Shown here one piece after another: positions 5,764 to 25,777 of a DNA stretch of 33,880 bases. Location of the stretch: positions 1 through 33,880 of IMG/VR virus record IMGVR_UViG_3300048804_000058; one strand, written 5' to 3'. Below the pieces are notes generated by a model, which searched no databases, was not told the origin of the DNA, and saw nothing but the letters and a program-made list of their open reading frames with translations. This DNA is from a virus. The first letter of the stretch is position 1. Every line of letters starts with the position of its first letter. Both the position numbers and the translations under genes were made by a program.

Positions 5764-6360
5764 CTATTGTTCTCCTATAATGATTTTTTTTTTCCAATTA
5801 TCTTCCGCCCATAGTGGTTGAAGATTTGTATAATGAAAACATTTTTTCTGTTCATCTATTCTTGATAAATCAAACTTACAACAAGGAATAATATGATCAA
5901 TATGCCATTTACCATAGTTTTCCCAAGTCATTCCGAGTTGAAATTTCGTTTCTAACCATTGCTTCAAAAAATCCACAGAACACCCCAACAATTCTAATGT
6001 ATGACCAGACTTCCAGTTTTGTTTCAATGCTCTATATATTCTGCTTCTATAATATTCTCGTATCTTGAAATTCAAATCAATACTCTTTCTTCGTCTACTA
6101 TTATAGATATGGAGATTATTGATTTGTTTTTTATGTTTTTCATAATACTTTTTATTCCACTCGGAATGTTCTTTTTTATGATTTTGATAATATTTTCTTG
6201 AACTTTCAATAAAAGATGTATTATCCTTTTGTCTTTTTTCTCTTATCCCTTTGAGACAACATTCTATACATATTTTTTGCAAAGAATATTTCTTATTGCT
6301 CGTCTTATAAAAATATTCTTCTGTATAAGGGTTATCAATTTCACATCTTTTACAAATCAT
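5764..6360 (-). CDS. HNH endonuclease (probable free-standing homing endonuclease)
   Basis: 198 aa. An N-terminal zinc-binding pair (CKRC, then CIECC) is followed by a Lys/Tyr/Arg-rich helical linker. The C-terminal HNH core reads GMTWENYGKWHIDHIIPC, then FDL, EQKKCFHYTNLQPLWAEDN, with the H-x-D-H-x-x-P and N...P...N positions intact. Free-standing enzymes of this phage type nick or cut DNA to spread their own genes. It sits in a structural operon, and a TATAAATA late-promoter box lies only 5 nt before the ATG with no ribosome binding site, suggesting independent, possibly leaderless, late expression. Identification of the nuclease is firm; the homing role is inferred. Confidence 0.9.
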   Translation of the reverse strand: MICKRCEIDNPYTEEYFYKTSNKKYSLQKICIECCLKGIREKRQKDNTSFIESSRKYYQNHKKEHSEWNKKYYEKHKKQINNLHIYNSRRRKSIDLNFKIREYYRSRIYRALKQNWKSGHTLELLGCSVDFLKQWLETKFQLGMTWENYGKWHIDHIIPCCKFDLSRIDEQKKCFHYTNLQPLWAEDNWKKKIIIGEQ

Positions 6361-9473: not shown

Positions 9474-9509
9474 TCTATCTTATTTATAAAATTTTATAAA
9501 TAAGATAGA
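9474..9509. promoter_or_regulatory. Perfect 36-bp palindrome: back-to-back late promoters
   Basis: The sequence reads identically on both strands for 36 bp. Each strand contains TTTTATAAATAAGATAGA, with TATAAATA at 9495-9502 (plus) and 9481-9488 (minus). T4 late promoters are defined by TATAAATA at -10, so this is read as two divergent late promoters sharing an overlapping core. It separates the leftward operon starting at 9465 from the rightward operon starting at 9581. A regulator-binding palindrome is an alternative or additional role. Confidence 0.8.
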
Positions 9510-9580
9510 AGAGTTTTAAGAACAAACGACTAACAAGAGGACGAAATTTTGTTCTTATGTTATGTGAGGAGGAAAATGTT

Positions 9581-10051
9581 ATGGCATTACCAAGTCCACA
9601 GTTTGCAACACCGATTACATTAGAATTGGTGCTTTCAATAATAGCCATCGCTATAAGTTTTTTTGGATTATTATGGACACAATTCAAAGTATTGCTAGGA
9701 ATAGAAAGAAGATTGGTTAGTATAGAAACAAAAACAGATCTGTGGTGGGATATAGTATCCGATCAAGCAAGAAAAATTATTAAGCAGCCAATACATTTTA
9801 GAAAAGATGATTTGCTAGACAGATTTCCGAACCTCAATGATGATGAATTATGCGAATTAAAAAATATCATTGCTACGGAAAAGCATGAACTTGAACCAAG
9901 CAAAGACCCAAAATTAATATCATATGCTATATGGACAGCGCGAATAGAAATGGAATACATGAAAAGAGATGCTGAAAAAAGAACATCAGGACGAAGAAAA
10001 GTTGTTTGTTCATGTAAAAAATTTATTATCGGTGACTGTAATAAAGAATAA
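9581..10051 (+). CDS. Membrane protein, first gene of plus late operon
   Basis: 156 aa. The frame opens at 9557, but GAGGAGG lies just before ATGGCATTACC, so 9581 is chosen. One transmembrane helix (LELVLSIIAIAISFFGLLW, about residues 13-31) is followed by a helical, charged cytoplasmic part and a C-terminal Cys pair (VCSCKKF). No family recognised. It lies downstream of the palindromic late promoter and just before a second membrane protein. Confidence 0.75.
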   Translation: MALPSPQFATPITLELVLSIIAIAISFFGLLWTQFKVLLGIERRLVSIETKTDLWWDIVSDQARKIIKQPIHFRKDDLLDRFPNLNDDELCELKNIIATEKHELEPSKDPKLISYAIWTARIEMEYMKRDAEKRTSGRRKVVCSCKKFIIGDCNKE

Positions 10052-10079: not shown

Positions 10080-10673
10080 ATGTTAATTAATGTTTTAGTA
10101 TTAATATCAACTGTATTTGGATTCATGTCACTATACTATGGATTTAGAAACTGGGTCTTAATCAAAAGCAATAAATTATGGAATGCATCATGGGCTGCTT
10201 TTATTTCAACTGCCACTCTCATAGGTATTAGAAGGCTTTATTCGTTTCAATACGAACATGAACATATGTTAATTGAATATCTTTTGGTATTAGCAATATC
10301 CATTGGAGCATTCACATTTGCTTTAACAAAAAATAAATTCTTTGAAAAATATCTACGAGATATTAGAGAAGAAAAGGCAGATAAAAATTTCAGAAGAAAA
10401 GAAGAACTCATAAAAACAAAAGAAGAAGGCCGAGAAGAAGCAAATATAGAAAGAGAAAAAGGAAGAGAAACAGAAATACAAGCGCAAGAAAAAGATAGAG
10501 AAGATAAAAAAGAAAGAATTACAATGAGAAGAAGTAAGAGAGAACAAGAAAGCACAGATAGAGGAATAGCGAGAGAAGAAGAAAGCATTACAAGAGAAAA
10601 AGAAAGAATGCAAGAAAGAGAAGAAAGATTGACAGAAAGAAAAAGAAACATAAAAGATAAAAACGATCTATGA
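10080..10673 (+). CDS. Membrane protein with long charged single helix
   Basis: 197 aa. The start at 10080 is preceded by AGAGGTG, 8 nt upstream; a longer open frame from 9969 overlaps the previous gene and lacks such a site. Three hydrophobic segments (about residues 2-18, 36-51, 62-80) are followed by ~110 residues made almost only of Glu, Lys and Arg, e.g. REKGRETEIQAQEKDRED. This ER/K pattern is typical of a rigid single alpha-helix. It could act as a membrane-anchored spacer or scaffold; no family recognised. The stop overlaps the next start (ATGA). Confidence 0.7.
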   Translation: MLINVLVLISTVFGFMSLYYGFRNWVLIKSNKLWNASWAAFISTATLIGIRRLYSFQYEHEHMLIEYLLVLAISIGAFTFALTKNKFFEKYLRDIREEKADKNFRRKEELIKTKEEGREEANIEREKGRETEIQAQEKDREDKKERITMRRSKREQESTDRGIAREEESITREKERMQEREERLTERKRNIKDKNDL

Positions 10674-10906
10674 GACTAAAAAAATATTTATCAGAACAAG
10701 ACGGTGTATCTTCGAACCCCAGCAATCAAACATCTGGTGGCTTTGCGAATTATGGTATGGGGGCAGTTGCATATAAGCCAAAGGATCAAATCGACAGAAA
10801 GAAAAAGAAGAAAAAGAAAGAACCGAAAGAAGTTAAAAAGCCATTAACATTTCGACCAATAGCAGATACATCAGGAGAAACAACTGATAGCATGAGGCAA
10901 TACTAA
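10670..10906 (+). CDS. Tagged small basic protein (MRLKKYLSEQ)
   Basis: 78 aa. It begins MRLKKYLSEQD, the first of five consecutive plus-strand genes with the tag MRLxxY[LIM]xE. L-S-E fits the T4 prohead protease cleavage pattern, and the tag resembles the T4 internal-protein targeting peptide (MKTYQEFIAE). Behind it are a Gly/Asn/Ser stretch and a poly-Lys run (RKKKKKKKEPKEVKK), as expected for a DNA-binding or internal head protein. Start coupled to the upstream stop by ATGA, with no separate ribosome binding site. Confidence 0.75.
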   Translation: MRLKKYLSEQDGVSSNPSNQTSGGFANYGMGAVAYKPKDQIDRKKKKKKKEPKEVKKPLTFRPIADTSGETTDSMRQY

Positions 10907-11433
10907 TGAGGCTTGAAAAATACATGCAAGAGCAAATGGCGGGTGGTGGTGGAATGACTTCTGGTGGAATAGCTGGAGGAGCAAAAGGTGGAGAAATTGG
11001 AAGTGGTGCCACAACAACAAGCAAGATAGCCAAATTTTATCCTTACTACATTTATAATAAGAAGAAGAAGAAAAAAAAATTATTGAGTAGGAGAAAGGAA
11101 GAAATGACCATGACCAAGGAAGAGAAACTACTTTGGGAGCAGGGGCATCAAGTTGCTAAAACCATTCTTACACAAATTCATTCTTTAGATAAGTGGGCAT
11201 TGGGAGCATGGGGAGCACAAGATTTTGTATCAACAAACAATCCATCAAGTCTTCAGTTTAGAGTGAATGGAGCAAAATTCAAAGGAAAGGTTGTTATTCA
11301 TCTAAACGGAAAGGATTTATATGATATAGATTTTGGTGTGGGAAAAGATTTAAAATGGGTTTCAAAACACAAAGAACATGATATCTATGCTGAAGATTTA
11401 GTCAAAATACTTGATGACTATATTGAGAAATAA
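10906..11433 (+). CDS. Tagged protein: Gly-rich linker, poly-Lys, conserved phage domain
   Basis: 175 aa beginning MRLEKYMQEQ (tag; M-Q-E at the cleavage position). Residues 13-40 are Gly-rich, residues 52-58 are seven Lys, and from about residue 68 (MTKEEKLLWEQGHQVAKTIL ... WALGAWGAQDF ... LQFRVNGAKFKGKVVIHLNGKDLYDI) there is a compact domain that I recognise as a common stand-alone phage protein of unknown function. A tag and linker therefore seem to have been fused to it. An internal start at 11104 or 11110 (ATGACCATGACC after AGAAAGGAAG) could also make the domain alone. The stop TAA shares its A with the next ATG region. Confidence 0.75.
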   Translation: MRLEKYMQEQMAGGGGMTSGGIAGGAKGGEIGSGATTTSKIAKFYPYYIYNKKKKKKKLLSRRKEEMTMTKEEKLLWEQGHQVAKTILTQIHSLDKWALGAWGAQDFVSTNNPSSLQFRVNGAKFKGKVVIHLNGKDLYDIDFGVGKDLKWVSKHKEHDIYAEDLVKILDDYIEK

Positions 11434-12813
11434 ATGAGACTTAAATATTATATAACCGAAGCAGATGAAAAAATTAAAGTCGTAATTCTCACAACAAAGA
11501 ATGATGAAAAAAAAGAAGATTCTGGTGGGGATAAACTCTTTGACACATCAAAGAAAATCAAAGAGTATTGTGAAAAGAAAAAAATAAGTCATTATGTATT
11601 ATACGCCGAGAATGCATTCATCAATCGAAATAAAGATGATATGACCGTCCATAATTCCGATGACAAACAAGGATTTAAAATACACAAAAACAATACAGCA
11701 GTTGTTGTTCGAGGAACTTTTGATACACTATCAACTGGCCTTGACCTTCTTTCCAGAATGGAAAATGCTGGTATATTCTGTGTAAATGGAAGAGAAGCAA
11801 TAGAAATATGCTCCGATAAATATCGAACAATTCTCGCCATGGAAGACAATGAGATAAAATGCCCCAAGACAGCAACGGTAGTGAATAAAGATGGGCTTGG
11901 GGGCGCATTTAAACGAATTGGTGGAAAATTCCCATGTATCTTAAAAACCATAACAGGATCAAAGGGTATTGGAGTGTTTTTTGCGGATTCGTGGATTGGC
12001 ATGAATTCTACTCTTCAGGCAATGTGGAAAGTAGATGAAGAAGTACAGATATTGATGCAGGAATACATTGAAGCAGATTTTGATATGAGAATCCATGTTC
12101 TGGGTGGTGAAGTCATAGGAGCAATGAAAAGATTCAAAATAAAAAATGATTTCAGATCAAATTATTCTCTTGGTGGCAAAATTGAAGAGATGAAAGTAAA
12201 TGACAAATTGAGAGAATTTGCTATCAATGCAGCGAAGGCAATAGGGGGAATATGGGTCGGTGTAGATGTAATGGATGCAGGAAAAGAGGATTATCGCGTT
12301 ATCGAAGTCAACTCTTCACCAGGGACAGAAGGAATAGAAAAAGCCACCCATAAAAATATAGTTGGAACAGTAGTAAAGTTCATAACCGATAAGAACAATT
12401 GGGCTGATATAAAAAAGACAGAATGTGGTTTCGTTGAAAAAATAAAAATAGAAAAAACAGATAAAGAATTTGATGCCAAAATGGATACGGGCAATAGTTC
12501 TTACTCTGTCATTCATGCCAACAAATGGAAAATAAATGGCGATAATATAAGATGGGAAATGTATGGAAAGAAATATACCGATGAATTAGACTCCATGAAA
12601 GAAGTAGAAGCAGGAGCGACAGAACATAAGAGAGAAGAAAGACCCGTCATAAAGTTGAATGTAATTTTCAACGGGGAAACATACAAAAACGTTAGATTCT
12701 GTCTATCAGATCGAGAAGATTTTTCAACTCCTGTATTGATGAATCGCCAATTTATTAGACGGGCTGGATTAATAGTCAACCCATCATTGAAATATGCTCT
12801 ATCGGAAAAATAA
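11434..12813 (+). CDS. Tagged RimK-like ATP-grasp ligase fused to RimB-like protease domain
   Basis: 459 aa. Tag MRLKYYITEA (I-T-E). Residues ~15-320 form a RimK-type ATP-grasp glutamate ligase: CPKTATVV, the ATP-binding lysine in FPCILKTITGSKGIGV, the LMQEYIEAD strand, DMRIHVLGGEVIGAMKR, and the metal-binding end VIEVNSSPG. RimK adds glutamates to the C-terminus of ribosomal protein S6. Residues ~335-459 match the retropepsin-like RimB / RimK-associated zinc-protease family, with AKMDTG at 349-353 and LSDRED plus VLMNRQF near the end. A ligase and its partner hydrolase in one chain, with a head-targeting tag, suggest an injected ribosome-modifying enzyme; that target is inferred. Confidence 0.85.
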   Translation: MRLKYYITEADEKIKVVILTTKNDEKKEDSGGDKLFDTSKKIKEYCEKKKISHYVLYAENAFINRNKDDMTVHNSDDKQGFKIHKNNTAVVVRGTFDTLSTGLDLLSRMENAGIFCVNGREAIEICSDKYRTILAMEDNEIKCPKTATVVNKDGLGGAFKRIGGKFPCILKTITGSKGIGVFFADSWIGMNSTLQAMWKVDEEVQILMQEYIEADFDMRIHVLGGEVIGAMKRFKIKNDFRSNYSLGGKIEEMKVNDKLREFAINAAKAIGGIWVGVDVMDAGKEDYRVIEVNSSPGTEGIEKATHKNIVGTVVKFITDKNNWADIKKTECGFVEKIKIEKTDKEFDAKMDTGNSSYSVIHANKWKINGDNIRWEMYGKKYTDELDSMKEVEAGATEHKREERPVIKLNVIFNGETYKNVRFCLSDREDFSTPVLMNRQFIRRAGLIVNPSLKYALSEK

Positions 12814-13118
12814 TGAGACTACAAGAATATCTTACAGAAAAAGAAGAAAGGAAAGTTGTTGTTTATAACATAAAGAATGTAGATCAGCTTCACCAAAGAA
12901 TGAAAGAAATGAGCGTGGGAAATGAGTATGCATGGATTGCCCACACAGTCTTTGGTATGACAACTCTGACCGCATATAAACGCCCAAGTCTTATACCATA
13001 TATTGCGATAGGCGATTCTCCCATAGCATTCAAAGGATTTTATCAGAATGGAGAGTTCAAGGATTTTCCTACTGCTCAAAAAATCAAATACCAGAATAGT
13101 AATATGGGATCAGAATGA
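12813..13118 (+). CDS. Tagged hypothetical protein (MRLQEYLTEK)
   Basis: 101 aa. Tag MRLQEYLTEK (L-T-E). The remainder is an alpha/beta domain (KVVVYNIKNVDQLHQRMKEM, YAWIAHTVFGMTTL, PYIAIGDSPIAFKGFY) with no family I recognise. Start coupled to the upstream stop (TAATGAG) and overlapping the Nudix start by 4 nt. Probably co-packaged with the other tagged proteins if the tag works as proposed. Confidence 0.7.
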   Translation: MRLQEYLTEKEERKVVVYNIKNVDQLHQRMKEMSVGNEYAWIAHTVFGMTTLTAYKRPSLIPYIAIGDSPIAFKGFYQNGEFKDFPTAQKIKYQNSNMGSE

Positions 13119-13570
13119 GACTCAATAAATATATAACAGAAGAAAAAAAACTCAGTGTAGGTCTTATTCTTACAGATGGAGAAGTATTTCTCGCCGTTAG
13201 ACCTACAAATGGATTTCTCTATGATATGCCAAAAGGAATGGGCAATCCAGGAGAAAACCCTGTTGAAACTATTGTAAGGGAGTTCAAAGAAGAAACAAAC
13301 ATTGACATATCGAGATATAAATCACAACTAACCCCAATGGGAAAACATTATTATACAAACTATAAAGACGTTGACGTTTTTGTCCTGAAACTTGAAAATC
13401 TTCCTTCAATATCTTCAATGAAATGCACTTCAATGTTTCATATAAGACCCGATGAACTCGCGCCAGAAGTTGATCAATTCCATTATATCAATTGGAACAA
13501 TTTGAAAATGTTCAATTCTGGTATGAAAAACATTCTGGAAAAAGTAAGAGAAAAAATAAAAAACCCATAA
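13115..13570 (+). CDS. Tagged Nudix hydrolase
   Basis: 151 aa. Tag MRLNKYITEE (I-T-E). The Nudix box runs from G41 to I63 and fits G-x5-E-x7-REUxEExGU, with N replacing the last G (REFKEETNI), so the metal-binding glutamates are present. Nudix enzymes hydrolyse nucleoside diphosphates linked to another group, such as NAD, ADP-ribose or RNA caps; the substrate cannot be read from sequence. Last gene of the plus operon, ending at a hairpin shared with the convergent minus operon. T4 also encodes a Nudix enzyme, but tagging one for the head would be unusual. Confidence 0.85.
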   Translation: MRLNKYITEEKKLSVGLILTDGEVFLAVRPTNGFLYDMPKGMGNPGENPVETIVREFKEETNIDISRYKSQLTPMGKHYYTNYKDVDVFVLKLENLPSISSMKCTSMFHIRPDELAPEVDQFHYINWNNLKMFNSGMKNILEKVREKIKNP

Positions 13571-15034: not shown

Positions 15035-15706
15035 TTAATGCTGAACAAAAAGAACATCAGACCTTGTTTGGCAAGCGGTGCATGTTTCCCCACAAACCAC
15101 CTTATTTCCTGGTTTGCATGGACAAACAAAGGCACCTGTTTCTCCTGCACGAATGTTTATTTCTTGTTCTGGGCCAAAGTTAACTTTACCACCAACAAAA
15201 GAACTTACGACATTGAAATTAGGAAGAGATTTAATCTTTCCAAAATCCCATATATGTTCTGTTTTAGTATATGTATAGAATCTTACATCAGGTCTTTCTT
15301 TTGCAATTTCAAACCACATATCAAGATATGCTTGAGAGAACATATCACCTGATTCATGAATTCTGACAATATCTCCTGATTCTAACTTCGATAATATTTG
15401 TTTTTTCAAAAGTTCGGGGGCTTCTTTAGCAAGTCTAAAATTTCGGCCTCGTGCTGCCCTGACAGCAGGATATTGTCTTTCTGCTTTTCTAGCATAGCAG
15501 AATTTAGCACATTGGGAAGAATTTGGGCAACTCTGTATAGCGGGAAGATTGAATATTTTTATCTTCTTGGATAATTTCAAATTTCCTTTAGACATAAAAA
15601 CCCAAAGGTCTTCAAGAGGAATTTGTTCTACAGGAACATTTTTATACTTCACTGCCATTTCTTTTTCTCTTTTGTCCACTTCTACCAAAAAATTTTCATA
15701 TCGCAT
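15035..15706 (-). CDS. GP88-like protein with head-tag-like N-terminus
   Basis: 223 aa. It starts MRYENFLVEVDK; NFL-V-E matches the L-x-E cleavage pattern and resembles the tags of the plus operon. The body (SKGNLKLSKKIKIFNLPA, SCPNSSQCAKFCYARKAE, VRAARGRNF) matches the phage GP88 family, named after a mycobacteriophage gene product. The Cys clusters C-x5-C-x3-CYA and a later CPCKPG...C...CTAC suggest bound metal or an Fe-S cluster. A TATAAATA late box lies 28 nt upstream. Biochemical function of the family is not known to me. Confidence 0.75.
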   Translation of the reverse strand: MRYENFLVEVDKREKEMAVKYKNVPVEQIPLEDLWVFMSKGNLKLSKKIKIFNLPAIQSCPNSSQCAKFCYARKAERQYPAVRAARGRNFRLAKEAPELLKKQILSKLESGDIVRIHESGDMFSQAYLDMWFEIAKERPDVRFYTYTKTEHIWDFGKIKSLPNFNVVSSFVGGKVNFGPEQEINIRAGETGAFVCPCKPGNKVVCGETCTACQTRSDVLFVQH

Positions 15707-16605: not shown

Positions 16606-16682
16606 TGGTGAGGTCGGGGGGAATCGAACCCCCATGTGCGCAGGGTAAGAGCCTGTTACAAGCCAATATTTGTTACGACCTC
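16606..16682 (-). tRNA. tRNA-Lys(CTT)
   Basis: Acceptor GAGGTCG/CGACCTC, discriminator A, encoded CCA. Anticodon loop CTCTTAC gives CTT. T arm GGGGG-TTCGATT-CCCCC. Top pair of the anticodon stem is A-C. The CCA is followed at once by AAGGA for the next gene. Confidence 0.9.
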
Positions 16683-16683
16683 A

Positions 16684-16944
16684 TTATATTTCAAACAAAT
16701 CTTTTGGTAATTTAAACTTTATGATCGAGCCTAATTTCACAGAAAGAAAAAAACAATATTCATTATTCGAAACCAGATTTCCACTACATGTTACATAATC
16801 TTTATTGGAAGAAAATATCTTTTGGTATCGTGTAGAAGATGTTAAATGAAACTCTCTCCCAATATATTCTTTTCGTTTATCATAAAAACCATCGGAGAAC
16901 TCTATATCTTCTATAATTACTGTATCACCATGTTCGAATTTCAT
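16684..16944 (-). CDS. Small beta-rich protein, SH3-like
   Basis: 86 aa, starting MKFEHGDTVIIEDIEF and ending FKLPKDLFEI. The start (K-x-GD-x-V-x-I) and the ending resemble the small protein at 25305-25496 and the last residues of 18063-18527 (FFPKDLFKIE), suggesting a family of small barrel proteins spread through the tRNA block. The stop is 1 nt from the 5-prime end of tRNA-Lys. Function unknown. Confidence 0.6.
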   Translation of the reverse strand: MKFEHGDTVIIEDIEFSDGFYDKRKEYIGREFHLTSSTRYQKIFSSNKDYVTCSGNLVSNNEYCFFLSVKLGSIIKFKLPKDLFEI

Positions 16945-16945
16945 T

Positions 16946-17170
16946 CTACTTCCTATTCAGATAAGCATTTATATTTTTCAATTCTGTTATTGCTTTTCTT
17001 GCTTCATACATTGAATTTATATATTCACTCTCTTTGCGATATTTGATATATTGAAATAATTTCTTCAATGTAAAAATAAAAAAACATATACCGATAATAA
17101 GATATATAATCCCCATTGTTTTTACAATTATGGGATTGGGATTAGTCAATTGTGGAATATTCGCTATCAT
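16946..17170 (-). CDS. Small membrane protein
   Basis: 74 aa with one clear transmembrane helix (IIVKTMGIIYLIIGICFFIF, about residues 14-33) followed by a charged helix. It lies between tRNA-Val(TAC) and 16684-16944, 9 nt after the encoded CCA; no strong ribosome binding site. No family recognised. Confidence 0.6.
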   Translation of the reverse strand: MIANIPQLTNPNPIIVKTMGIIYLIIGICFFIFTLKKLFQYIKYRKESEYINSMYEARKAITELKNINAYLNRK

Positions 17171-17178
17171 AAAATTTT

Positions 17179-17255
17179 TGGTACGGGATGGTGGATTTGA
17201 ACCACCTACCTTTCGGGTGTAGGCCGAATGTTCTTCCCAAGTGAACTAATCCCGC
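17179..17255 (-). tRNA. tRNA-Val(TAC), C33
   Basis: Acceptor GCGGGAT/ATCCCGT (G-T first pair), discriminator A, CCA encoded. Stem TTCGG/CCGAA with loop CCTACAC: anticodon TAC and C instead of the near-universal T at position 33. T arm GGTGG-TTCAAAT-CCACC. Confidence 0.85.
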
Positions 17256-17261
17256 ATTATT

Positions 17262-17783
17262 TTAATACAACCATTTTTCGTTTCTAAAATCACCATATTC
17301 TTGAACGGCACCATAAATATTTTGAACTATGTCTGTTCGATGAACCATTATTTTACAAGTGCCATAAAGCAATTTTCCTTTTTTCTTTTTCGAAGAAAAT
17401 TTAGAATACTTATTTATAATTGATTTTCTTAAACAACTTTTCGGCAAACACAAAGCATTACACCAATATGCTTCAATATCAGATATTGACATTCCGTTAT
17501 TATCATAAGCATTTATTTCTAATTTTATTTCTTCTATCCGAACATTATAACATTCCATCAAAAACTTCAGAAAAAATTTCAACATATTAACATCTGAATT
17601 TGTAAGTATGACGGAATTTTTCTTTTTAGAACCCTCACCCCAAAACAACATACATCCAGAAATATGTAACCAATTCAATTCCTTTGCTTTTTGTTTTCCC
17701 TTATTTTGGCACTCTTCTCTTAATTTTCTAAATTTATCTTGAGCGAATGTATTACCAAAATGTATTAAATTTTTGTTTACCAA
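17262..17783 (-). CDS. Possible LAGLIDADG-like / WGEGSK-domain protein
   Basis: 173 aa with a TTG start (17781-17783) after a GAG-rich stretch, overlapping the previous stop by 7 nt. The core LHISGCMLFWGEGSKKKNSV, then TNSDVNMLKFFLKFL, matches a widespread uncharacterised family whose (A/G)xxxWGEGS motif recalls degenerate LAGLIDADG helices. A homing-type endonuclease inserted in the tRNA block is possible but unproven. A TATAAATAAGTA sequence occurs inside the gene near 17409-17420 and may be chance. Confidence 0.6.
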   Translation of the reverse strand: MVNKNLIHFGNTFAQDKFRKLREECQNKGKQKAKELNWLHISGCMLFWGEGSKKKNSVILTNSDVNMLKFFLKFLMECYNVRIEEIKLEINAYDNNGMSISDIEAYWCNALCLPKSCLRKSIINKYSKFSSKKKKGKLLYGTCKIMVHRTDIVQNIYGAVQEYGDFRNEKWLY

Positions 17784-17968
17784 CTCTTTTTACTCCAAGA
17801 AATATTTCGTTCTGTCTTTCCTAACTTTCGGCCTTTTCGTAAACCCTTGGCCTCTGCTTCTTTCAGACAATACTGGCAGGGGTCAAGAAAATAAACACCA
17901 TTATCCACACCCGTTGCTGTTTTTGGTTTTCCCAAATCCCCGCTACATTTTGAACAAAAATAATTCAT
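17777..17968 (-). CDS. Zinc-binding C4 protein
   Basis: 63 aa from MNYFCSKCSG; AAGGA 7 nt upstream decides this start, since the longer frame reads back through tRNA-Val(GAC). The pattern YFCSKCSGDL ... GVYFLDPCQYCLKEAEAKG matches each of two repeats in the protein at 24156-24626 (YYCDKCNADL ... IAIKPCHACLEEANNAG). It is thus a single-copy version of that zinc finger. The basic C-terminus suggests nucleic-acid contact. Function unknown. Confidence 0.7.
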   Translation of the reverse strand: MNYFCSKCSGDLGKPKTATGVDNGVYFLDPCQYCLKEAEAKGLRKGRKLGKTERNISWSKKSW

Positions 17969-17985
17969 TTTACTTTCCTTTCTTT

Positions 17986-18061
17986 TGGTGCGGAATGTTG
18001 GTTTCGATCCAACTACCTTTGCCGTGTCAGGACAACGCTCTCCCAATTGAGCTAATCCCGC
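17986..18061 (-). tRNA. tRNA-Val(GAC)
   Basis: Acceptor GCGGGAT/ATTCCGC, discriminator A, CCA encoded. Stem TTGTC/GGCAA, loop CTGACAC, anticodon GAC. Complements tRNA-Val(TAC). Confidence 0.9.
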
Positions 18062-18062
18062 A

Positions 18063-18527
18063 TTATTCTATTTTGAACAAATCCTTTGGAAAAAAAGCAG
18101 GACGAATTACTGTAAACCCTCGCGCTATCAGTTTATCATATTGTTCATCGGTCACTTCATGGTCAATATAACCATACTCATCAATATTTTCCATCATTAT
18201 TTTTGCTTCATAAAGACCATTATTAAAAACTTCTCGTAAATCCTTTACGGCAGCAATTCTCAATTCAATTTTTTTTGAAATTCTGCTTTTGGCTGAAGGC
18301 AAATAAAATGAATTATCCTCTTCATCTATAATTTTGAACCCAACATAAATTAAATCATTTTTTTGAATATCGGTCAATTCAGAAACAAAATAACCATTGT
18401 CTCTTATGCTTTCTGCCATTTCTTTTGCTTCTTTCAAACCAACAAAAAGAATAGAACGAATTTCCTTTATGATTGTAATAAATCTTTGGGAAACATAATC
18501 ATGGTCTTTTGAGATTTTATAGTTCAT
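18063..18527 (-). CDS. Tandem ribosomal L7/L12 C-terminal-domain-like protein
   Basis: 154 aa made of two repeats: about residues 15-67 (RFITIIKEIRSILFVGLKEAKEMAES, then TDIQKNDLIYVGFKII) and 88-141 (LRIAAVKDLREVFNNGLYEAKIMMEN, then TDEQYDKLIARGFTVI). Each matches the bL12 C-terminal domain pattern (K-I-x-V-I-K-x-x-R-x..G-L-x-EAK, then a G-x-x-V/I end). In ribosomes this domain recruits EF-Tu, EF-G, IF2 and RF3. There is no N-terminal dimerisation domain to bind L10, so it would not simply replace host L12. It has its own consensus promoter. A role in binding translation factors is inferred. Confidence 0.75.
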   Translation of the reverse strand: MNYKISKDHDYVSQRFITIIKEIRSILFVGLKEAKEMAESIRDNGYFVSELTDIQKNDLIYVGFKIIDEEDNSFYLPSAKSRISKKIELRIAAVKDLREVFNNGLYEAKIMMENIDEYGYIDHEVTDEQYDKLIARGFTVIRPAFFPKDLFKIE

Positions 18528-18533
18528 ATTATA

Positions 18534-18562
18534 ATTATATCAGAGTTTTCAATATATGTCAA
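18534..18562 (-). promoter_or_regulatory. Consensus sigma70 promoter for L12-like gene
   Basis: Perfect TTGACA (18557-18562), 17-bp spacer, perfect TATAAT (18534-18539); the -10 lies 7 nt before the ATG at 18527, giving a near-leaderless transcript. Confidence 0.85.
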
Positions 18563-18594
18563 GAAAAAAGTTTTACATATATATCAATAAGTTA

Positions 18595-18684
18595 TGGCGG
18601 AGAGAATGGGATTTGAACCCATGGGAGCATGGTGACTCCACCTGCTTTCCAGACAGGCACCTTAAACCACTCGGCCATCTCTCC
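18595..18684 (-). tRNA. tRNA-Ser(GGA)
   Basis: Acceptor GGAGAGA/TCTCTCC, discriminator G, CCA encoded. Loop CTGGAAA, anticodon GGA, with the long variable arm typical of serine tRNAs. The stop of 18662-18901 lies inside its D loop. Confidence 0.9.
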
Positions 18685-18901
18685 GAATTTGGTCAATAAC
18701 TTTCACTTCATCTATCCAACACGCATCAGAGTATATTGATTTATGAGAACCATTATGCTCTATAATGTATTGATGATTATCGAGTAATTTTTTGGCATCA
18801 TACGTAAAGGCAACTACATGATCTGGATAATCAGAAAATCTAGCAATGTATGTATTGTTTTCTCTGGTCGATAATATATCTATTTTTATTTTATCCATCA
18901 T
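18662..18901 (-). CDS. Small hypothetical protein ending inside tRNA-Ser
   Basis: 79 aa, starting MMDKIKIDILSTREN. The last eight codons and the TAA lie within the tRNA-Ser(GGA) gene (23-nt overlap), so the same RNA must serve as message or tRNA. The start is 8 nt after the CCA of tRNA-Ser(GCT), with a weak AAAAGA site. No family recognised. Confidence 0.6.
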   Translation of the reverse strand: MMDKIKIDILSTRENNTYIARFSDYPDHVVAFTYDAKKLLDNHQYIIEHNGSHKSIYSDACWIDEVKVIDQIRRDGRVV

Positions 18902-18908
18902 AATCTTT

Positions 18909-18996
18909 TGGAGGAAGGGACAGGATTCGAACCTGCGGGGCTTTTACACCCAAAAGTTTAGCAAACTTTCATCATAAACCACTCGATCACCCTTCC
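18909..18996 (-). tRNA. tRNA-Ser(GCT)
   Basis: Acceptor GGAAGGG/CCCTTCC, discriminator T, CCA encoded. Stem AAAGT/ACTTT, loop TTGCTAA, anticodon GCT, long variable arm. Discriminator T is unusual for serine, where G is usual. Confidence 0.9.
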
Positions 18997-19002
18997 GAAT
19001 TT

Positions 19003-19079
19003 TGGAGGCGGCAGAGAGACTCGAACCCCCGCATTTTCTGTTTTGCAGACAGACGCATTACCATCTTTGCTATGCCGCC
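19003..19079 (-). tRNA. tRNA-Cys(GCA)
   Basis: Acceptor GGCGGCA/TGCCGCC, discriminator T, CCA encoded. Stem TCTGT/ACAGA, loop CTGCAAA, anticodon GCA. Overlaps the stop of 19070-19369 by 10 nt. Confidence 0.9.
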
Positions 19080-19369
19080 TTAATCTTTTTCCATCCTTTC
19101 TTACCTATGACAAACCCAGTTTCTCGCAACCATTTTTCCCAATAGTTTTTCACAAAATCCCAATCTTCAACTTCAGAACTTGTGAAACCAAGAAATTCAT
19201 TTTTGGATTCATCCCAAGAAGCATCATGAACACCATATGTTTCTTCCAACCAAGTCATATCAGATTCAGAAACTATATCTAGGAAATCCTGAAAATCCAT
19301 CGAACAACTAACAAGAGGAAGACGATATGTTATTTCCTCGTTTTCATCGTGAAGCACAAAATACTTCAT
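19070..19369 (-). CDS. Hypothetical acidic protein
   Basis: 99 aa starting MKYFVLHDENEEITYRLP, Glu/Asp/Trp-rich (DFVKNYWEKWLRETGFV), with AAAGGAAA before the ATG. The final codons AAG-GCG-GCA-TAG run into the 5-prime end of tRNA-Cys. Overlaps the DUF4326 gene start region by 4 nt. No family recognised. Confidence 0.65.
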   Translation of the reverse strand: MKYFVLHDENEEITYRLPLVSCSMDFQDFLDIVSESDMTWLEETYGVHDASWDESKNEFLGFTSSEVEDWDFVKNYWEKWLRETGFVIGKKGWKKIKAA

Positions 19370-19635
19370 ACAATTTCCTTTCCTATATAATCCGCCAATA
19401 ATGCTAATATGTCACCATGGCATCCTTTGGGTTTACACCAGCACCCCAAAGTTTTATCTTTCAATTCATGTAAATCAGCAAGAAGTTTTTCATTCTTCAT
19501 TATCCATACTTGATATTTCTGTAATACCTTCTCCCTGTTGCCGTCTTTGCCTATAGCAAATGGATTGCCCCATTTACTGGGCCTTCCGATATATACATCA
19601 TATGCTTCTTTTTTACAATGAACTACTTTTGTCAT
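19366..19635 (-). CDS. DUF4326-family protein
   Basis: 89 aa from ATG at 19635 (MTKVVHCKKEAYD); a TTG at 19659 would add eight residues. The motifs VYIGRPSKWGNPF, a middle REKVLQKYQVWI helix and LGCWCKPKGCHGDIL are those of DUF4326, a family common in phages. The conserved Cys/His (C-W-C ... C-H-G-D) suggest metal binding. Function unknown. The start lies within the end of the zinc-ribbon gene 19613-19816. Confidence 0.85.
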   Translation of the reverse strand: MTKVVHCKKEAYDVYIGRPSKWGNPFAIGKDGNREKVLQKYQVWIMKNEKLLADLHELKDKTLGCWCKPKGCHGDILALLADYIGKEIV

Positions 19636-19816
19636 TTTTTCTCTTATTGTATATATCAATATTGCTTTCTAATACTTCACAATCGAGACTTTCATTTGGG
19701 TTGCACAAACTGCAAAGAACCGATGGATACCTTCTTATAATTCCTTTCCTACATATATGGCAGAGAATTAATTTATCTCTCTTCTTAAATAAATGTCGAT
19801 TATCAATTGCTTCCAT
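19613..19816 (-). CDS. Small zinc-ribbon protein
   Basis: 67 aa. C-x2-C (CHIC) and C-x2-C (CSLC) 16 residues apart form a zinc ribbon; the C-terminus is Lys/Ser/Asn-rich. The start is 7 nt downstream of the encoded CCA of tRNA-Gly(TCC), with AGG between as ribosome binding site. Function unknown. Confidence 0.65.
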   Translation of the reverse strand: MEAIDNRHLFKKRDKLILCHICRKGIIRRYPSVLCSLCNPNESLDCEVLESNIDIYNKRKNDKSSSL

Positions 19817-19823
19817 AATACCT

Positions 19824-19901
19824 TGGAGCGGGTGGAGGGACTCGAACCCTCACTAAAAGGGTGGAAGCCTTTCGTGCTGTTCCGTTAAACACTACACCCG
19901 C
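19824..19901 (-). tRNA. tRNA-Gly(TCC)
   Basis: Acceptor GCGGGTG/CACCCGC, discriminator T, CCA encoded. Stem AAAGG/CCTTT, loop CTTCCAC, anticodon TCC. Overlaps the C-terminal codons of 19885-20265. Confidence 0.9.
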
Positions 19902-20265
19902 TTATATCAAACATCTCATTAGGAAGTTCAATAAGCACCTTCAAATCATACGGTGATATATACCACTTGCCAACAAGATAATCCGCATACTTTACTATTT
20001 TTAACTGATGATAAATTTTTGTATAAGATTCATCAATCGTCCTGTATTCAATGTAATATACCGTTTTGGAAATCACCTTATATTTTTTATTCAATGGTAT
20101 ATATATATTTGCCTTTACTATTTGATCGTCATTAAATTCTACATATGGGCCGCGCTTACCAACAACAAGACGATCATAGCCTTTGCAAACAAGCATATCT
20201 GATTTTGTATGGAAAAGAAGGTCTTCATTCTTCTTTATGTATTTCAAATAATTAACAAGTTCCAT
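19885..20265 (-). CDS. Conserved phage hypothetical protein
   Basis: 126 aa. The phrases MLVCKGYDRLVVGKRGPYVEF and QLKIVKYADYLVGKWYISPYDLK belong to a family I have seen in phages and bacteria without known function. Beta-rich. Its last codons extend 17 nt into tRNA-Gly(TCC). It directly follows 20266-20637 (the ATG abuts that stop). Role unknown. Confidence 0.65.
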   Translation of the reverse strand: MELVNYLKYIKKNEDLLFHTKSDMLVCKGYDRLVVGKRGPYVEFNDDQIVKANIYIPLNKKYKVISKTVYYIEYRTIDESYTKIYHQLKIVKYADYLVGKWYISPYDLKVLIELPNEMFDISGCSV

Positions 20266-20637
20266 TTACCACCATAAAGTCTGAAACCATTCTCCGAATA
20301 ATTTACATCCCCTTTGAACTCTCTTATGATTTACATCAGGGCCATACCATTTATCATCATCCGAAGAAATTTCCATAGCATAAATCATATCATCAAGAAT
20401 TTTATGCCATTTCTTTCTTCCAGCATCCCAATCTTCATTTGTAACAGAAGGAGAAAAACATCCAGGAACACCAGGAGAAATTTCTCTATATTTTTTCAAT
20501 CTTGGTAGAGTAAATTTGGCTACATACAAAAATAAACACCAAGTTTCGCGTTCATCAAATCCCCATTCTTTTCTTTGCTTCGCCCATTCAAAGCGGCGGT
20601 CATCGGAGTGACTTTTCTTACCTAATTTTCTGTTCAT
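20266..20637 (-). CDS. Conserved phage hypothetical protein
   Basis: 123 aa from MNRKLGKKSH; a GTG two codons earlier is also open. GGGTGA lies just upstream. It contains RRFEWAKQRKEWGFDERETWCL, then LPRLKKYRE and a WDAGRKKWHKILDDMIYAME helix, a pattern frequent in T4-like phages (GFDxRxTWxL ... LPRLKxF). Trp-rich. Function unknown. Confidence 0.7.
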   Translation of the reverse strand: MNRKLGKKSHSDDRRFEWAKQRKEWGFDERETWCLFLYVAKFTLPRLKKYREISPGVPGCFSPSVTNEDWDAGRKKWHKILDDMIYAMEISSDDDKWYGPDVNHKRVQRGCKLFGEWFQTLWW

Positions 20638-20779
20638 ATTCACCCAACTTACAATTTTTACTTGAACATATAGTCTTGAATTTCAAGCAGTAAAACGGTT
20701 TCAATTCACCAACAAACATTCTATCTTTTGGATTACACAAATTAACCATCTTTTCCCTGAATGTAATTCTCTTTTTCAT
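20618..20779 (-). CDS. Small Cys-containing protein
   Basis: 53 aa, starting MKKRITFREKMVNLCNPKD and containing FYCLKFKTICSSKNCK. AAAAAGGTGAAT precedes the ATG and tRNA-Trp lies just upstream. It overlaps the start of 20266-20637 by 20 nt. Four Cys could bind a metal. Too short for family assignment; accepted on its ribosome binding site and spacing. Confidence 0.5.
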   Translation of the reverse strand: MKKRITFREKMVNLCNPKDRMFVGELKPFYCLKFKTICSSKNCKLGEYEQKIR

Positions 20780-20790
20780 ATTCACCTTTT

Positions 20791-20868
20791 TGGCAGGAGC
20801 AGTAGGGATTCGAACCCTAATCTTTCGGTTTTGGAGACCGATATTTTTCCAATTAAACTACTCTCCCG
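20791..20868 (-). tRNA. tRNA-Trp(CCA)
   Basis: Stem TCGGT/ACCGA, loop CTCCAAA, anticodon CCA. GCCA at the 3-prime end as in E. coli tRNA-Trp. The acceptor stem is irregular: GGGAGAG against TGCTCCT or CTGCTCC leaves mismatches or needs an 8-bp stem with a C-G closing pair. Confidence 0.8.
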
Positions 20869-20872
20869 TATT

Positions 20873-20949
20873 TGGTTGCGAGTGACAGGTTCGAACTGTC
20901 GTATAACATGGTTATGAGCCATGCGCCTTACCATCTTGGCGAACTCGCA
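20873..20949 (-). tRNA. tRNA-Met(CAT), elongator-like
   Basis: Acceptor TGCGAGT/ACTCGCA, discriminator A, CCA encoded. Stem CATGG/CCATG, loop CTCATAA. Could instead be tRNA-Ile(CAT) read after lysidine modification; fully paired acceptor argues against an initiator. Confidence 0.85.
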
Positions 20950-20957
20950 ATAAATTT

Positions 20958-21045
20958 TGGAGGAAGGAGTGGGATTCGAACCCACGGAACTTTTACATCC
21001 ATTAGTTTTCAAGACTAACACCTTAAGCCACTCGGCCACCCTTCC
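20958..21045 (-). tRNA. tRNA-Ser(TGA)
   Basis: Acceptor GGAAGGG/TCCTTCC, discriminator T, CCA encoded. Stem TTAGT/ACTAA, loop CTTGAAA, anticodon TGA, long variable arm. Confidence 0.9.
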
Positions 21046-21052
21046 TTAATTC

Positions 21053-21131
21053 TGGTAGCGGAGGTGAGATTTGAACTCACGTAGAATTGGTTATGAGCCA
21101 ATGCTGGGGGCCAACTCCAGTCTACTCCGCA
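21053..21131 (-). tRNA. Second tRNA(CAT): initiator- or Ile2-like
   Basis: Stem ATTGG/CCAAT, loop CTCATAA. Acceptor TGCGGAG/CTCCGCT has a T-T mismatch at 1-72; an unpaired 1-72 is the hallmark of bacterial initiator tRNA, but the three G-C pairs of initiator anticodon stems are absent. CCA encoded. The TAG of 21122-21451 lies at positions 8-10. Confidence 0.75.
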
Positions 21132-21451
21132 TCAATTTCTTTCTTGTGTTTTTTATACCACGATTTGTAAGGTTCTTCTTTTAATCTGCTTTTGCTTTCC
21201 TCATATTCATTCCAATGCCTTACAACCGTTTTTTCTATCTCTTCATGAAGTGCTTCAAGTAATGATACACACCACCAATCATCTAAACCATCAATAATTT
21301 CCTTTGCTGTTTTATTAAAATCAGGAAAGCCTTCACCTTCATCATCTGAAGCCATAGCAATCAGATCAAAATCTTTTGTGTTTTCATATATGAACATTCC
21401 CAATATTCTTTGGGGATGTAACTGAATAAAATGTTTACTTACTTTTTTCAT
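21122..21451 (-). CDS. Hypothetical protein ending inside tRNA(CAT)
   Basis: 109 aa, starting MKKVSKHFIQLHPQRILGMF, helical and charged at the C-terminus (KSWYKKHKKEIDAE). AAGGAA directly after the CCA of tRNA-Ile(TAT) serves as ribosome binding site. The last codons and TAG overlap the next tRNA by 10 nt. No family recognised. Confidence 0.65.
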   Translation of the reverse strand: MKKVSKHFIQLHPQRILGMFIYENTKDFDLIAMASDDEGEGFPDFNKTAKEIIDGLDDWWCVSLLEALHEEIEKTVVRHWNEYEESKSRLKEEPYKSWYKKHKKEIDAE

Positions 21452-21461
21452 AAAATTCCTT

Positions 21462-21537
21462 TGGTAGCCCCACCAGGATTCGAACCTGGGTCTATCGGTT
21501 ATAAGCCGATTGCGCTACTCGATTGTGCTATGGGGCC
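21462..21537 (-). tRNA. tRNA-Ile(TAT)
   Basis: Acceptor GGCCCCA/TGGGGCT, discriminator A, CCA encoded then AAGGAA. Stem ATCGG/CCGAT, loop CTTATAA, anticodon TAT for the rare AUA codon. Confidence 0.9.
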
Positions 21538-21538
21538 A

Positions 21539-21856
21539 TTATTTTTTCTGTCTTGCCAATTCCTTCTTTGTTTTTTTCTCCCACGGTGCTTTTGTCTGTA
21601 AAGAGCGAATCAACCGATCATTCGGTTGCGGTTCATCATCTTCCATATGAGGGCATTCAGGATTGCTATTCATTCCTTGACATTGCCCCATACAAGTTTC
21701 TGGTTTGCATTTTTCTTTTTTTGCTTCTTCTTCCAGAAATTCCTTCAACATTTTAGAAAATTTAGAAAATTCTTTGGAATGAACCAATGGATGTTTTTTT
21801 CCAGAATGAAGTTTCTTCAAAAAATTTTCGGCATCCTTACCATGCAATGTTGTCAT
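21539..21856 (-). CDS. Hypothetical Lys-rich protein with Cys cluster
   Basis: 105 aa. N-terminal helical region rich in Lys (FLKKLHSGKKHPLVHS, then MLKEFLEEEAKKEK), then CKPETCMGQCQGMNSNPEC, a cluster of four Cys that may bind metal, then a basic tail. AAGGAAAA after the CCA of tRNA-Thr(CGT) is the ribosome binding site. The stop is 1 nt from tRNA-Ile. No family recognised. Confidence 0.65.
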   Translation of the reverse strand: MTTLHGKDAENFLKKLHSGKKHPLVHSKEFSKFSKMLKEFLEEEAKKEKCKPETCMGQCQGMNSNPECPHMEDDEPQPNDRLIRSLQTKAPWEKKTKKELARQKK

Positions 21857-21866
21857 ATATTTTCCT

Positions 21867-21941
21867 TGGAGCCACCGAAGAGATTCGAACTCTCATGAAT
21901 TGGGTACGGACCAATCATTCTTCCTGTTGAATTACAGTGGC
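21867..21941 (-). tRNA. tRNA-Thr(CGT), C33
   Basis: Acceptor GCCACTG/CGGTGGC, discriminator T, CCA encoded. Stem ATTGG/CCAAT, loop TCCGTAC: anticodon CGT with C33. Its first 27 nt are also the end of the GGQ protein gene. Confidence 0.8.
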
Positions 21942-22295
21942 GTGTGTCCATTTTCCTTCTTGTTTTGTTTCTACTTTTATATATTTATCGTTTACCCATT
22001 TTTCAACTTCTGCAAGTAATTCTTTTTCTGTTTTATGAGTTGATAAATATTTTGATGCTTCCAATTTCAGCCACTTTTTGAATTTATCGGTATCAACCAA
22101 TCGTCTGAATGCATTCTTTCTATTTTGAAGTTGACTTCTCTCTTCTCTGCTTTCTCCTATTGCACCAGATTTTTCGTGAATTATTCTTACTCCACTTTCC
22201 ACCTTATTCTGGTTCTGCCCACCTTTGCCACCAGATCGAAAAGTTTGAATTTCAAAATCTTTTTTGGTTACAGAGAATAACAATTCTTTTTTCAT
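21915..22295 (-). CDS. GGQ-domain release-factor-like protein
   Basis: 126 aa from MKKELLFSVTKKDFEIQ; a longer open frame runs back through tRNA-Leu(CAA) and is rejected. Residues 19-40 (FRSGGKGGQNQNKVESGVRI) carry the GGQ peptidyl-tRNA hydrolysis motif (25-27) with the flanks of the RF-1 domain family, and GESREERSQLQNRKNAFRRL follows as in class I release factors. No codon-recognition domain is present, so it resembles ArfB-type rescue factors or RF-H-like proteins. The last residues and TGA lie in tRNA-Thr(CGT). The start follows the CCA of tRNA-Leu with no clear ribosome binding site. Confidence 0.85.
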   Translation of the reverse strand: MKKELLFSVTKKDFEIQTFRSGGKGGQNQNKVESGVRIIHEKSGAIGESREERSQLQNRKNAFRRLVDTDKFKKWLKLEASKYLSTHKTEKELLAEVEKWVNDKYIKVETKQEGKWTHATVIQQEE

Positions 22296-22303
22296 AATAT
22301 TTT

Positions 22304-22381
22304 TGGTGCGCCTGGGGGGATTCGAACCCCCAAAATCACGGGTTTGAGCCGTGCACCTATACCTGATTCGATCACAGGCGC
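22304..22381 (-). tRNA. tRNA with Leu(CAA) anticodon, short variable arm
   Basis: Acceptor GCGCCTG/CAGGCGC, discriminator A, CCA encoded. Stem CACGG/CCGTG, loop CTCAAAC, anticodon CAA. Variable region is only ATTTT, whereas bacterial leucine tRNAs have a long arm; the D stem is also short. Amino-acid identity is therefore uncertain. Confidence 0.8.
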
Positions 22382-22384
22382 ATA

Positions 22385-22585
22385 TTACCAACTATTCAAT
22401 TCAATTTCTGTGCGGTTGTTACATTTCGGGCATACGAAATTTACCTTAACCTCACCATGATTACCACATCTATCACAATCCTGGCTCATTCCTTGCCAGT
22501 GAAGATCATTCTTTTTTACTGCAACATTCTTGTTACAGTGCCCACAAAAAAATAAAAGATGTTTTAGTATACCTACATATCTCAT
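22385..22585 (-). CDS. Zinc-ribbon protein
   Basis: 66 aa from MRYVGILKHLLFF; AAGGAAAATGTT follows the CCA of tRNA-Leu(TAA) and sets the start. Three C-x2-C knuckles (CGHC, CDRC, CPKC) plus one further region could hold two zinc ions. Small multi-knuckle proteins of this kind are common in T4-like phages. Function unknown. Confidence 0.7.
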   Translation of the reverse strand: MRYVGILKHLLFFCGHCNKNVAVKKNDLHWQGMSQDCDRCGNHGEVKVNFVCPKCNNRTEIELNSW

Positions 22586-22597
22586 AACATTTTCCTT

Positions 22598-22674
22598 TGG
22601 TGCGAATGAAGGGATTCGAACCCTCACTTTACAGGGTTTAAGCCTGTTGACTCTACCAGTTGGCCCACATTCGC
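22598..22674 (-). tRNA. tRNA with Leu(TAA) anticodon, short variable arm
   Basis: Acceptor GCGAATG/CATTCGC, discriminator A, CCA encoded then AAAGGAA. Stem ACAGG/CCTGT, loop CTTAAAC, anticodon TAA. Variable region AAAGT (5 nt). The first 51 nt are also the end of the phosphatase reading frame. Confidence 0.8.
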
Positions 22675-23106
22675 ATTATCAACTTTCTTCAATGTAGAAT
22701 AAACCAGTTTATTGTATAACCTATAAGTAGCAAACCAAAATTTGATTTCCATTTTGTTTACTCTTACATTATATTTTTCTCCTATGAAAAATGCAACTCC
22801 TGCTGATCTTGAAATTCCTGCTGCGCAATGAACATATATTGTATTTACTCGATCATCCAGGTTGTGCAAAAAATGCACTATCTGCTTTGCATGATCCACA
22901 TTGAATATAGTATATTCAGTTACCAAATCAGGATGAGCATCAATATGCCTCTGATCTATATCGTGAAACCGCAATCTCAAGATTCTATTTCCCCAATCAG
23001 GCAAATCAACATCAGAGTTTTCGGAGATAGAAATCATAGCGGTGTCTTTTCTTACAACCGCCTTCTTCGCCATTTCCTCACCGAAGAAATATACTTGCTT
23101 GATCAT
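22624..23106 (-). CDS. Protein phosphatase, dual-specificity/PTP type
   Basis: 160 aa. The signature H93-C94-x5-R100-S (VHCAAGISRSAGVAFF) is the catalytic loop of Cys-based phosphatases, with an upstream IFNVDHAKQIVHFLH helix as in this family. No obvious general-acid loop can be pinned, though FHDIDQRHID is a candidate. Substrate may be phosphoprotein or RNA 5-prime phosphate. A second start (MAKKAV, after GGTGAGGAA) is possible. The last 17 residues (from DNANVGQ) are read through tRNA-Leu(TAA), so the natural end may once have been earlier. Driven by a consensus promoter at 23137-23165. Confidence 0.85.
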   Translation of the reverse strand: MIKQVYFFGEEMAKKAVVRKDTAMISISENSDVDLPDWGNRILRLRFHDIDQRHIDAHPDLVTEYTIFNVDHAKQIVHFLHNLDDRVNTIYVHCAAGISRSAGVAFFIGEKYNVRVNKMEIKFWFATYRLYNKLVYSTLKKVDNANVGQLVESTGLNPVK

Positions 23107-23125
23107 TTGATTCTCGTTTCCCTTA

Positions 23126-23183
23126 TTTCAGTCTTTATTATATCAAAAATCTGAAGACATGTCAAGAAAAATCTTTCATAATA
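23126..23183 (-). repeat. 58-bp promoter repeat, copy 1
   Basis: 56 of 58 bases match the copy at 28057-28114, including both promoter boxes, spacer ends and upstream A/T tract. Confidence 0.9.
23137..23165 (-). promoter_or_regulatory. Consensus sigma70 promoter (copy 1 of a duplicated promoter)
   Basis: Perfect TTGACA (23160-23165), 17-bp spacer, TATAAT (23137-23142). The surrounding 58 bp (23126-23183) recur with two mismatches at 28057-28114. An A/T-rich stretch before -35 may act as an UP element. Reads towards the phosphatase and on into the tRNA block. Confidence 0.9.
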
Positions 23184-23220
23184 ATGTCAACATCTTATAA
23201 CAAAAACCCCTTTTGGTTTA

Positions 23221-23295
23221 TGGTGGAGGAAGACGGATTCGAACCGCCCTCTCAACCTCTTCAGGGTCGCGCTAATCCTAATCAGCTATTCCTCC
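23221..23295 (-). tRNA. tRNA-Phe(GAA)
   Basis: Acceptor GGAGGAA/TTCCTCC, discriminator A, CCA encoded. Stem CGACC/GGTTG, loop CTGAAGA, anticodon GAA. Confidence 0.9.
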
Positions 23296-23304
23296 ACAAT
23301 TCCT

Positions 23305-23383: not shown

Positions 23384-23388
23384 ATAAA

Positions 23389-23898: not shown

Positions 23899-23909
23899 AT
23901 AAACCTTTC

Positions 23910-24626: not shown

Positions 24627-24661
24627 TTTGTATTCTCCTTTATATAGGATTTTCTATTTGT

Positions 24662-25774: not shown

Positions 25775-25777
25775 TTT

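Follow-up and report, generated by a model that had tools for sequence, protein, structure and literature searches.

The phage contig analysed here encodes a single polypeptide in which a RimK-type glutamate ligase is joined to a RimB-type retropepsin domain behind a short N-terminal tag, and this protein is probably a polyglutamate writer/eraser that is packaged in the phage head and injected into the host. The computed basis of this explanation comprises the two domains, the catalytic and largely intact polyglutamate-binding residues, the identity of the tag and the conservation of the family, while others have shown one divergent family member in virions; from these we infer cleavage, injection, enzymatic activity in this phage and the target. 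The window, i.e. the whole stretch of 33,880 nucleotides that was analysed (IMG/VR record IMGVR_UViG_3300048804_000058), corresponds to one end of the IMG/VR contig IMGVR_UViG_3300046710_000261 of 155,948 bases, with 99.99% identity over 33,840 bases, and the latter is referred to as the parent contig.

Domain organization of the RimK-RimB fusion

In the 459-residue protein, 13 N-terminal residues precede an ATP-grasp ligase of the RimK type, which is followed by a RimB retropepsin domain at the C-terminus (Table 1). Pfam searches placed RimK (PF08443) at residues 127-317 with an E value of 2.2e-39 and 135.5 bits against a cut-off of 21, and Zn_protease/RimB (PF05618) at residues 332-455 with an E value of 3.8e-13 and 50 bits against a cut-off of 27, the latter model being matched at E<=0.001 by 18 of the 26 aligned family members. 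An AlphaFold2 model, for which an alignment of 26 sequences served as input, had a mean pLDDT of 85 and a pLDDT of 90 for the C-terminal domain by itself. When this model was compared with PDB structures, residues 14-323 superposed on RimK (7qyr) with a Z of 32.1 and an rmsd of 2.4 over 286 residues and the RimK half matched the structure of RimK with RpsF (5zk6) with a Z of 31.7, while the C-terminal domain matched Legionella 2pma (DUF785) and Pseudomonas RloA2 and RloA (9g59 and 9g58) with Z values of 16.5-17.7 and retroviral proteases with a Z of about 9. An earlier note on this DNA had read the ORF as a RimK ligase fused to a RimB-like protease and had put forward structure prediction of both domains as a check; the fusion is borne out for this exact ORF by both Pfam domains and by both predicted folds. 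Two names in circulation were set aside: Glutathione synthetase, used in the Mosig and YerA41 records, was rejected as the primary identity, the RimK family scoring far higher, and "ATP-dependent zinc protease" for PF05618 is outdated, as the family is one of retropepsins (PMC12239564).

Table 1. Coordinates of the fusion gene, its parts and its neighbourhood in the window
Feature	Position	Strand	Evidence or remark
Perfect 36-bp palindrome with divergent TATAAATA, the motif of T4-type late promoters	9474..9509		between divergent gene runs
First ORF of rightward gene run, membrane-type, untagged	9557..10051	+	TATAAATA 54 nt upstream
Tagged small ORF, 78 aa (MRLKKYLSEQ...)	10670..10906	+	same tag; start/stop overlap with neighbour
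Tagged ORF, 175 aa (MRLEKYMQEQ...), phrog_9437 domain	10906..11433	+	relative in contig G003 tagged too
RimK-RimB fusion with N-terminal capsid-targeting-like tag, 459 aa	11434..12813	+	ATG start; ORF, Pfam, AlphaFold2 model, PDB matches
Tag MRLKYYITE, predicted prohead-protease cleavage after Glu9 (ITE/A)	11434..11460	+	disorder, conserved Glu9, T4 likeness
RimK-like alpha-L-glutamate ligase (ATP-grasp), residues 14-317	11473..12384	+	TIGR00768; metal ligands and nucleotide Lys171
RimB/RloA-like retropepsin domain, residues 326-459, catalytic D351-T-G-N	12409..12810	+	PF05618; PDB matches
Tagged ORF, 101 aa (MRLQEYLTEK...)	12813..13118	+	ORF list
Tagged NUDIX hydrolase, 151 aa (MRLNKYITEE...)	13115..13570	+	PF00293, E 1.4e-10; phrog_1185
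GP88-family ORF, tag MRYENFLVE	15035..15706	-	TATAAATA 27 nt upstream

Conservation of active sites and polyglutamate contacts

Within the ligase half, the ATP-grasp metal ligands D278, E291 and N293 and the nucleotide lysine K171 are invariant in all 30 non-redundant relatives, as are R93, R219, F240 and N243. Thus, the loss of metal ligands, which the earlier note had named as evidence that would speak against its reading, is seen in none of these relatives. In profile alignments read by eye, the ADP contacts K141, E178, I180, F210, S212 and N213 of Pseudomonas RimK correspond to phage K171, E210, I212, F240, S242 and N243, and its Glu contacts R64, R189 and N262 to phage R93, R219 and N293, with most of these phage counterparts being invariant among the relatives. 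Likewise, the protease half carries the catalytic D351-T-G followed by Asn in 30 of 30 non-redundant relatives. In the case of RloA, residues K46, R114 and R137 touch polyglutamate, with mutation of R114 or R137 having the strongest effect (PMC12239564), and these residues correspond to phage K349, R403 and R427, all of which are invariant. Judged by such residues, both halves of the fusion look active and built for polyglutamate, and polyglutamate chemistry by this protein is very likely.

Ribosomal protein S6 and other candidate targets

The fusion scores above the cut-off of the general RimK family model TIGR00768 (164.7 bits against 143.4) but below that of the S6-specific equivalog NF007764 (118.7 bits against 331). 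S6, through which the earlier note had suggested a reprogramming of host ribosomes, is plausible but unproven as a target, and as the main target it is possible rather than probable. A chance not far short of even is given to the same packaged enzyme having a target other than S6, such as the C-terminus of another host protein, a small-molecule acceptor or free polyglutamate, whose synthesis would drain the glutamate pool. Such a target agrees with the two model scores, with the extension of the ligase profile similarity to LysX/ArgX and MptN, and with the polyglutamate contacts S7/R8 of RimK, which by profile alignment are not retained in the phage ligase. Bacterial systems point in the same direction, since the RimBK hybrid of Desulfotalea (DP2392), described in 2025, cleaved polyglutamylated RpsF while glutamylation of RpsF was not seen (PMC11957791), and since RimB stimulates free polymer synthesis by RimK (PMC11957791). 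On the other hand, S6-type RimKs provide the closest structures and the best PDB profile hits for the ligase half, and the conserved polyglutamate-cleaving pocket fits a polyglutamylated protein. A search of the contig ORFs for poly-Glu runs and EE C-termini, as marks of a phage-encoded substrate, gave no convincing candidate.

The N-terminal tag as a T4-type capsid-targeting sequence

The tag is an N-terminal peptide of about 10 residues ending in (L/I)xE, as in T4-type capsid-targeting sequences, and MRLKYYITEA and MKAPKFKEFIAEA are candidate capsid-targeting peptides. Residues 1-11 have a pLDDT below 50 in the AlphaFold2 model and the folded part begins near residue 14, with which residue 1 of solved RimKs pairs in the structure comparison, placing the tag outside the RimK fold. 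Despite this location, Glu9 is kept in 29 of the 30 non-redundant relatives. The N-termini seen in relatives include KFKEFIAEA, KFREFISEA and KFNDYLTEA, among others. For comparison, IPII and IPIII of T4 begin with MKTYQEFIAEA, the site in T4 gp23 is SFLTE/A (the slash marks the cut), and the capsid precursor (MCP) of the pelagiphage Mosig carries AFLSE/A, the same kind of site as at the ends of phage MCP propeptides; processing of T4 core proteins by gp21 takes place at such motifs (PMC5694885).

Of 70 distinct N-termini from the family, 58 carry the tag motif; among neighbouring ORFs it occurs in 18 of 325, and among internal windows in 5 of 1275. Applied to the parent contig, the strict tag was found in 16 of 295 ORFs versus 0.04 expected from the rate in internal residues. 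Searching with a DNA pattern for the tag gave 5 matches versus 0.03 expected, including one in a non-protein frame, at 14948 (-), which was dropped as a protein, the frame having 13 codons. In the complete Mosig genome, a looser form of the tag pattern picks out a single ORF, that of the RimK-RimB protein. The cyanophage RimKs, which form a separate clade and have no RimB, are untagged and begin close to the Met of RimK; they were rejected as the same thing and serve as a negative control. An S77 prohead protease was seen in Mosig, Melnitz, YerA41 and contig IMGVR_UViG_3300027917_000020 (G003); the contig of the present phage, which is partial and lacks the head genes, showed none. By its sequence, MRLKYYITE/A is a T4-type capsid-targeting sequence, in line with the putative head tag of the earlier note, and packaging of the fusion in the phage head can be expected with high probability.

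The tag speaks for prohead targeting only; T4 core proteins are cleaved in the prohead, and a second head protease is conceivable. The core-targeting tag could hence mean that the fusion acts within the prohead, where it would modify capsid proteins or internal proteins while the head matures. This is quite improbable, given that ATP-grasp ligation requires ATP and free glutamate, that T4 Alt, the best known tagged enzyme, modifies the host, and that RimB-type proteases are specific for polyglutamate (PMC12239564).

Co-tagged neighbours and a putative effector set

The fusion gene is one of five consecutive ORFs (at 10670, 10906, 11434, 12813 and 13115) that start with MRL(K/E/Q/N)xY(I/L/M)x(E). 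Elsewhere in the parent contig, positions 104544-113506 (L024:4544-13506) hold an array of tagged ART-like ORFs with an LYRG/Arg/Glu pattern, and the tag is also borne by C39 peptidases and by a kinase resembling zeta toxin, a C39 peptidase and the kinase lying with the array. The label "ART-like", which is based on an LYRG motif together with invariant Arg and Glu positions, is unproven, and alignment of the ART-like proteins against PDB profiles gave no match at E<=1. A homologous array with tags of its own (MRWEQLTEA) is found in Agrobacterium phage Atu_ph07, at about CDS 53-61 by accession counting, within the cluster CDS 31-76, of which 29 proteins were found in virions (PMC6102473).

In contig G003 (L135-L143), 29 ORFs, mostly small and with no assigned function, fit a looser tag pattern of the MRLKRYLTEA type. 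At three loci (L068:2486-5623, L069:2486-5623 and L073:2894-5623), a cytidyltransferase-like domain (FGRFNPPTSGHELLV) precedes the fused RimK-RimB in proteins of 909-1045 aa, while at L064 the cytidyltransferase and RimK-RimB are neighbours and the cytidyltransferase has a tag-like start, MSKSYQQFLKE.

Presence in virions of a relative and timing of synthesis

Yersinia phage YerA41 encodes a fused RimK-RimB homologue with 33% identity, which forms a basal branch of the clade and whose N-terminus matches the tag poorly. Table 3 of the YerA41 report lists g112 as "Ribosomal protein modification protein", with an asterisk denoting detection by LC-MS/MS in purified particles (PMC7354516). This g112 was equated with YerA41_066 by gene order, the ribonucleotide reductase genes g109/g110 being genes 063/064 and the homologue gene 066. 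Polymerases and helicases were also present in the particles (PMC7354516), and for this reason carry-over of g112 from the lysate is possible.

As regards the time of synthesis, the 36-bp palindrome with its divergent TATAAATA motifs stands out in the window, where the next longest palindrome measures 16 bp. In the contig, TATAAATA immediately precedes ORFs 9 times versus 3.05 expected, a number equalled in 1 of 500 shifts, and an endolysin gene is among those preceded by it. Its presence in the palindrome and its enrichment upstream of ORFs fit late, assembly-time expression of the fusion in this phage. The motif was also observed upstream of a gene at 29066-30622 (-) of the window, encoding a 518-aa protein with five IPT/TIG repeats and internal DNA repeats. 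In pelagiphages the fusion gene is located between regA and the DNA polymerase gene, and YerA41 g112 is a middle gene (PMC7354516), so that timing varies between phages.

Given this position next to regA/gp43 in many phages and the middle expression of g112, the enzyme may act upon synthesis de novo. With the same location and expression in view, the fusion could be an ordinary, unpackaged host-takeover protein, made early or in the middle period and modifying ribosomes, with an incidental N-terminal motif. A proposal of 2008 drew on the T7 kinase in a comparable manner (PMC2530865). Such an unpackaged role is nonetheless unlikely, in view of the statistics and conservation of the tag, its disorder and location outside the RimK fold, and the presence of the YerA41 protein in particles, all of which favour a packaged enzyme.

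Relation to known RimK-RimB systems

One scan found 453 viral relatives, and among the best 80 of these 453 nearly all match both domains. In the tree, the fused phage proteins form one group with a support of 98/97, and nested inside it is the Melnitz protein, which has the tag and is without the RimB part. A genome scan for cellular relatives using phage patterns gave ligase-domain matches only, and in plasmid searches the rimK and rimB of Vibrio proved to be separate genes lying side by side. Other phages with the fused form, whose search the earlier note had recommended, are thus numerous, but the fusion itself is already known: Monier et al. described in 2008 marine phage RimK genes near regA, some with a C-terminal DUF785, and suggested, by analogy with the T7 kinase, that phage RimK modifies the translation machinery (PMC2530865). 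The proteins of that report share with the present one the domain order, the marine T4-like setting beside regA and a distinct phage clade; its accessible text makes no mention of a head tag, and DUF785 was at that time without an assigned function (PMC2530865).

Pseudomonas RimK and RimB resemble the phage protein in fold, catalytic residues, most ATP/Glu contacts, the DTG motif and polyglutamate contacts, but they are separate proteins with DTGA and no N-terminal tag, whereas the phage has one tagged chain with DTGN (PMC11957791, PMC10092738). Bacterial RimBK is likewise one chain, with RimB at the N-terminus and no capsid tag, whereas RimB is C-terminal in the phage protein. The haloarchaeal RimK-RimB of Haladaptatus (WP_227778482) has the phage domain order in one chain, yet it is cellular, lacks a tag and sits on a long separate branch. 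YerA41 g112 combines the same fusion and presence in virions with a poorly conserved tag. T4 Alt and IPII/IPIII have an N-terminal capsid-targeting peptide and are packaged, injected and active in the host, as is predicted for the fusion; Alt is an ADP-ribosyltransferase, in contrast to the glutamate ligase/protease predicted here. To our knowledge, there is no glutamate ligase or protease among the known T4 internal proteins. In the open PMC literature, we came across no description of the head tag, of a polyglutamate-binding site preserved in the protease domain or of the co-tagged effector set (ART-like, NUDIX, C39 and zeta-like kinase).

Proposed mechanism and meaning for phage biology

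In the reading preferred here, the fusion would be made during virion production and its short N-terminal capsid-targeting sequence would place the enzyme in the prohead core, where a gp21-type protease would cut off residues 1-9 after ITE, and the trimmed enzyme would go into the host with the phage DNA. There, the RimK domain with ATP would extend the C-terminus of a target protein, S6 of the host ribosome being the leading candidate, by alpha-linked glutamates, or would make free poly-alpha-glutamate, while the fused RimB domain, as a dimer, would trim the glutamate tails and/or stimulate the ligase. One polypeptide could thereby set the tail length. The parallel that the earlier note had drawn with T4 Alt gains from the same-tag ART-like proteins (of the T4 Alt kind, if the unproven label is correct) in this genome and from the YerA41 member in virions; the action at the moment of infection, which it had also suggested, is deduced from the tag and YerA41 proteomics.

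The genome has further features that concern translation. The window contains 34 tRNA genes, which make up an almost complete set, at 16606-27455 and 31417-31571 (-), and a tRNA nucleotidyltransferase is encoded elsewhere in the parent contig, indicating a heavy investment of the phage in translation. Separately, window 5797-6056 is 76% identical to contig 109184-109442, both in ORFs with cysteine-rich starts (MICKRCEID and MTCKKCEID), possibly representing duplicated homing-type genes.

Host RNA polymerase is modified by T4 Alt, the classic example of an enzyme carried in the virion, and a virion-borne modifier of translation, if true, would be a second arm beside Alt. In its most far-reaching and still doubtful form, widespread marine T4-like phages would inject a ready-made single-chain writer/eraser of S6 polyglutamylation, which would retune host translation before phage gene expression, together with co-injected effectors bearing the same tag. 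Given how often the family turns up in virus contigs, a large number of infections among abundant ocean bacteria could be touched by such a step. In addition, the tag offers a simple, sequence-only route to list probable injected effectors, in this phage at least 16 ORFs, mostly without an assigned function. The packaged fusion would give a testable meaning to the question raised in 2008 of why phages carry RimK.
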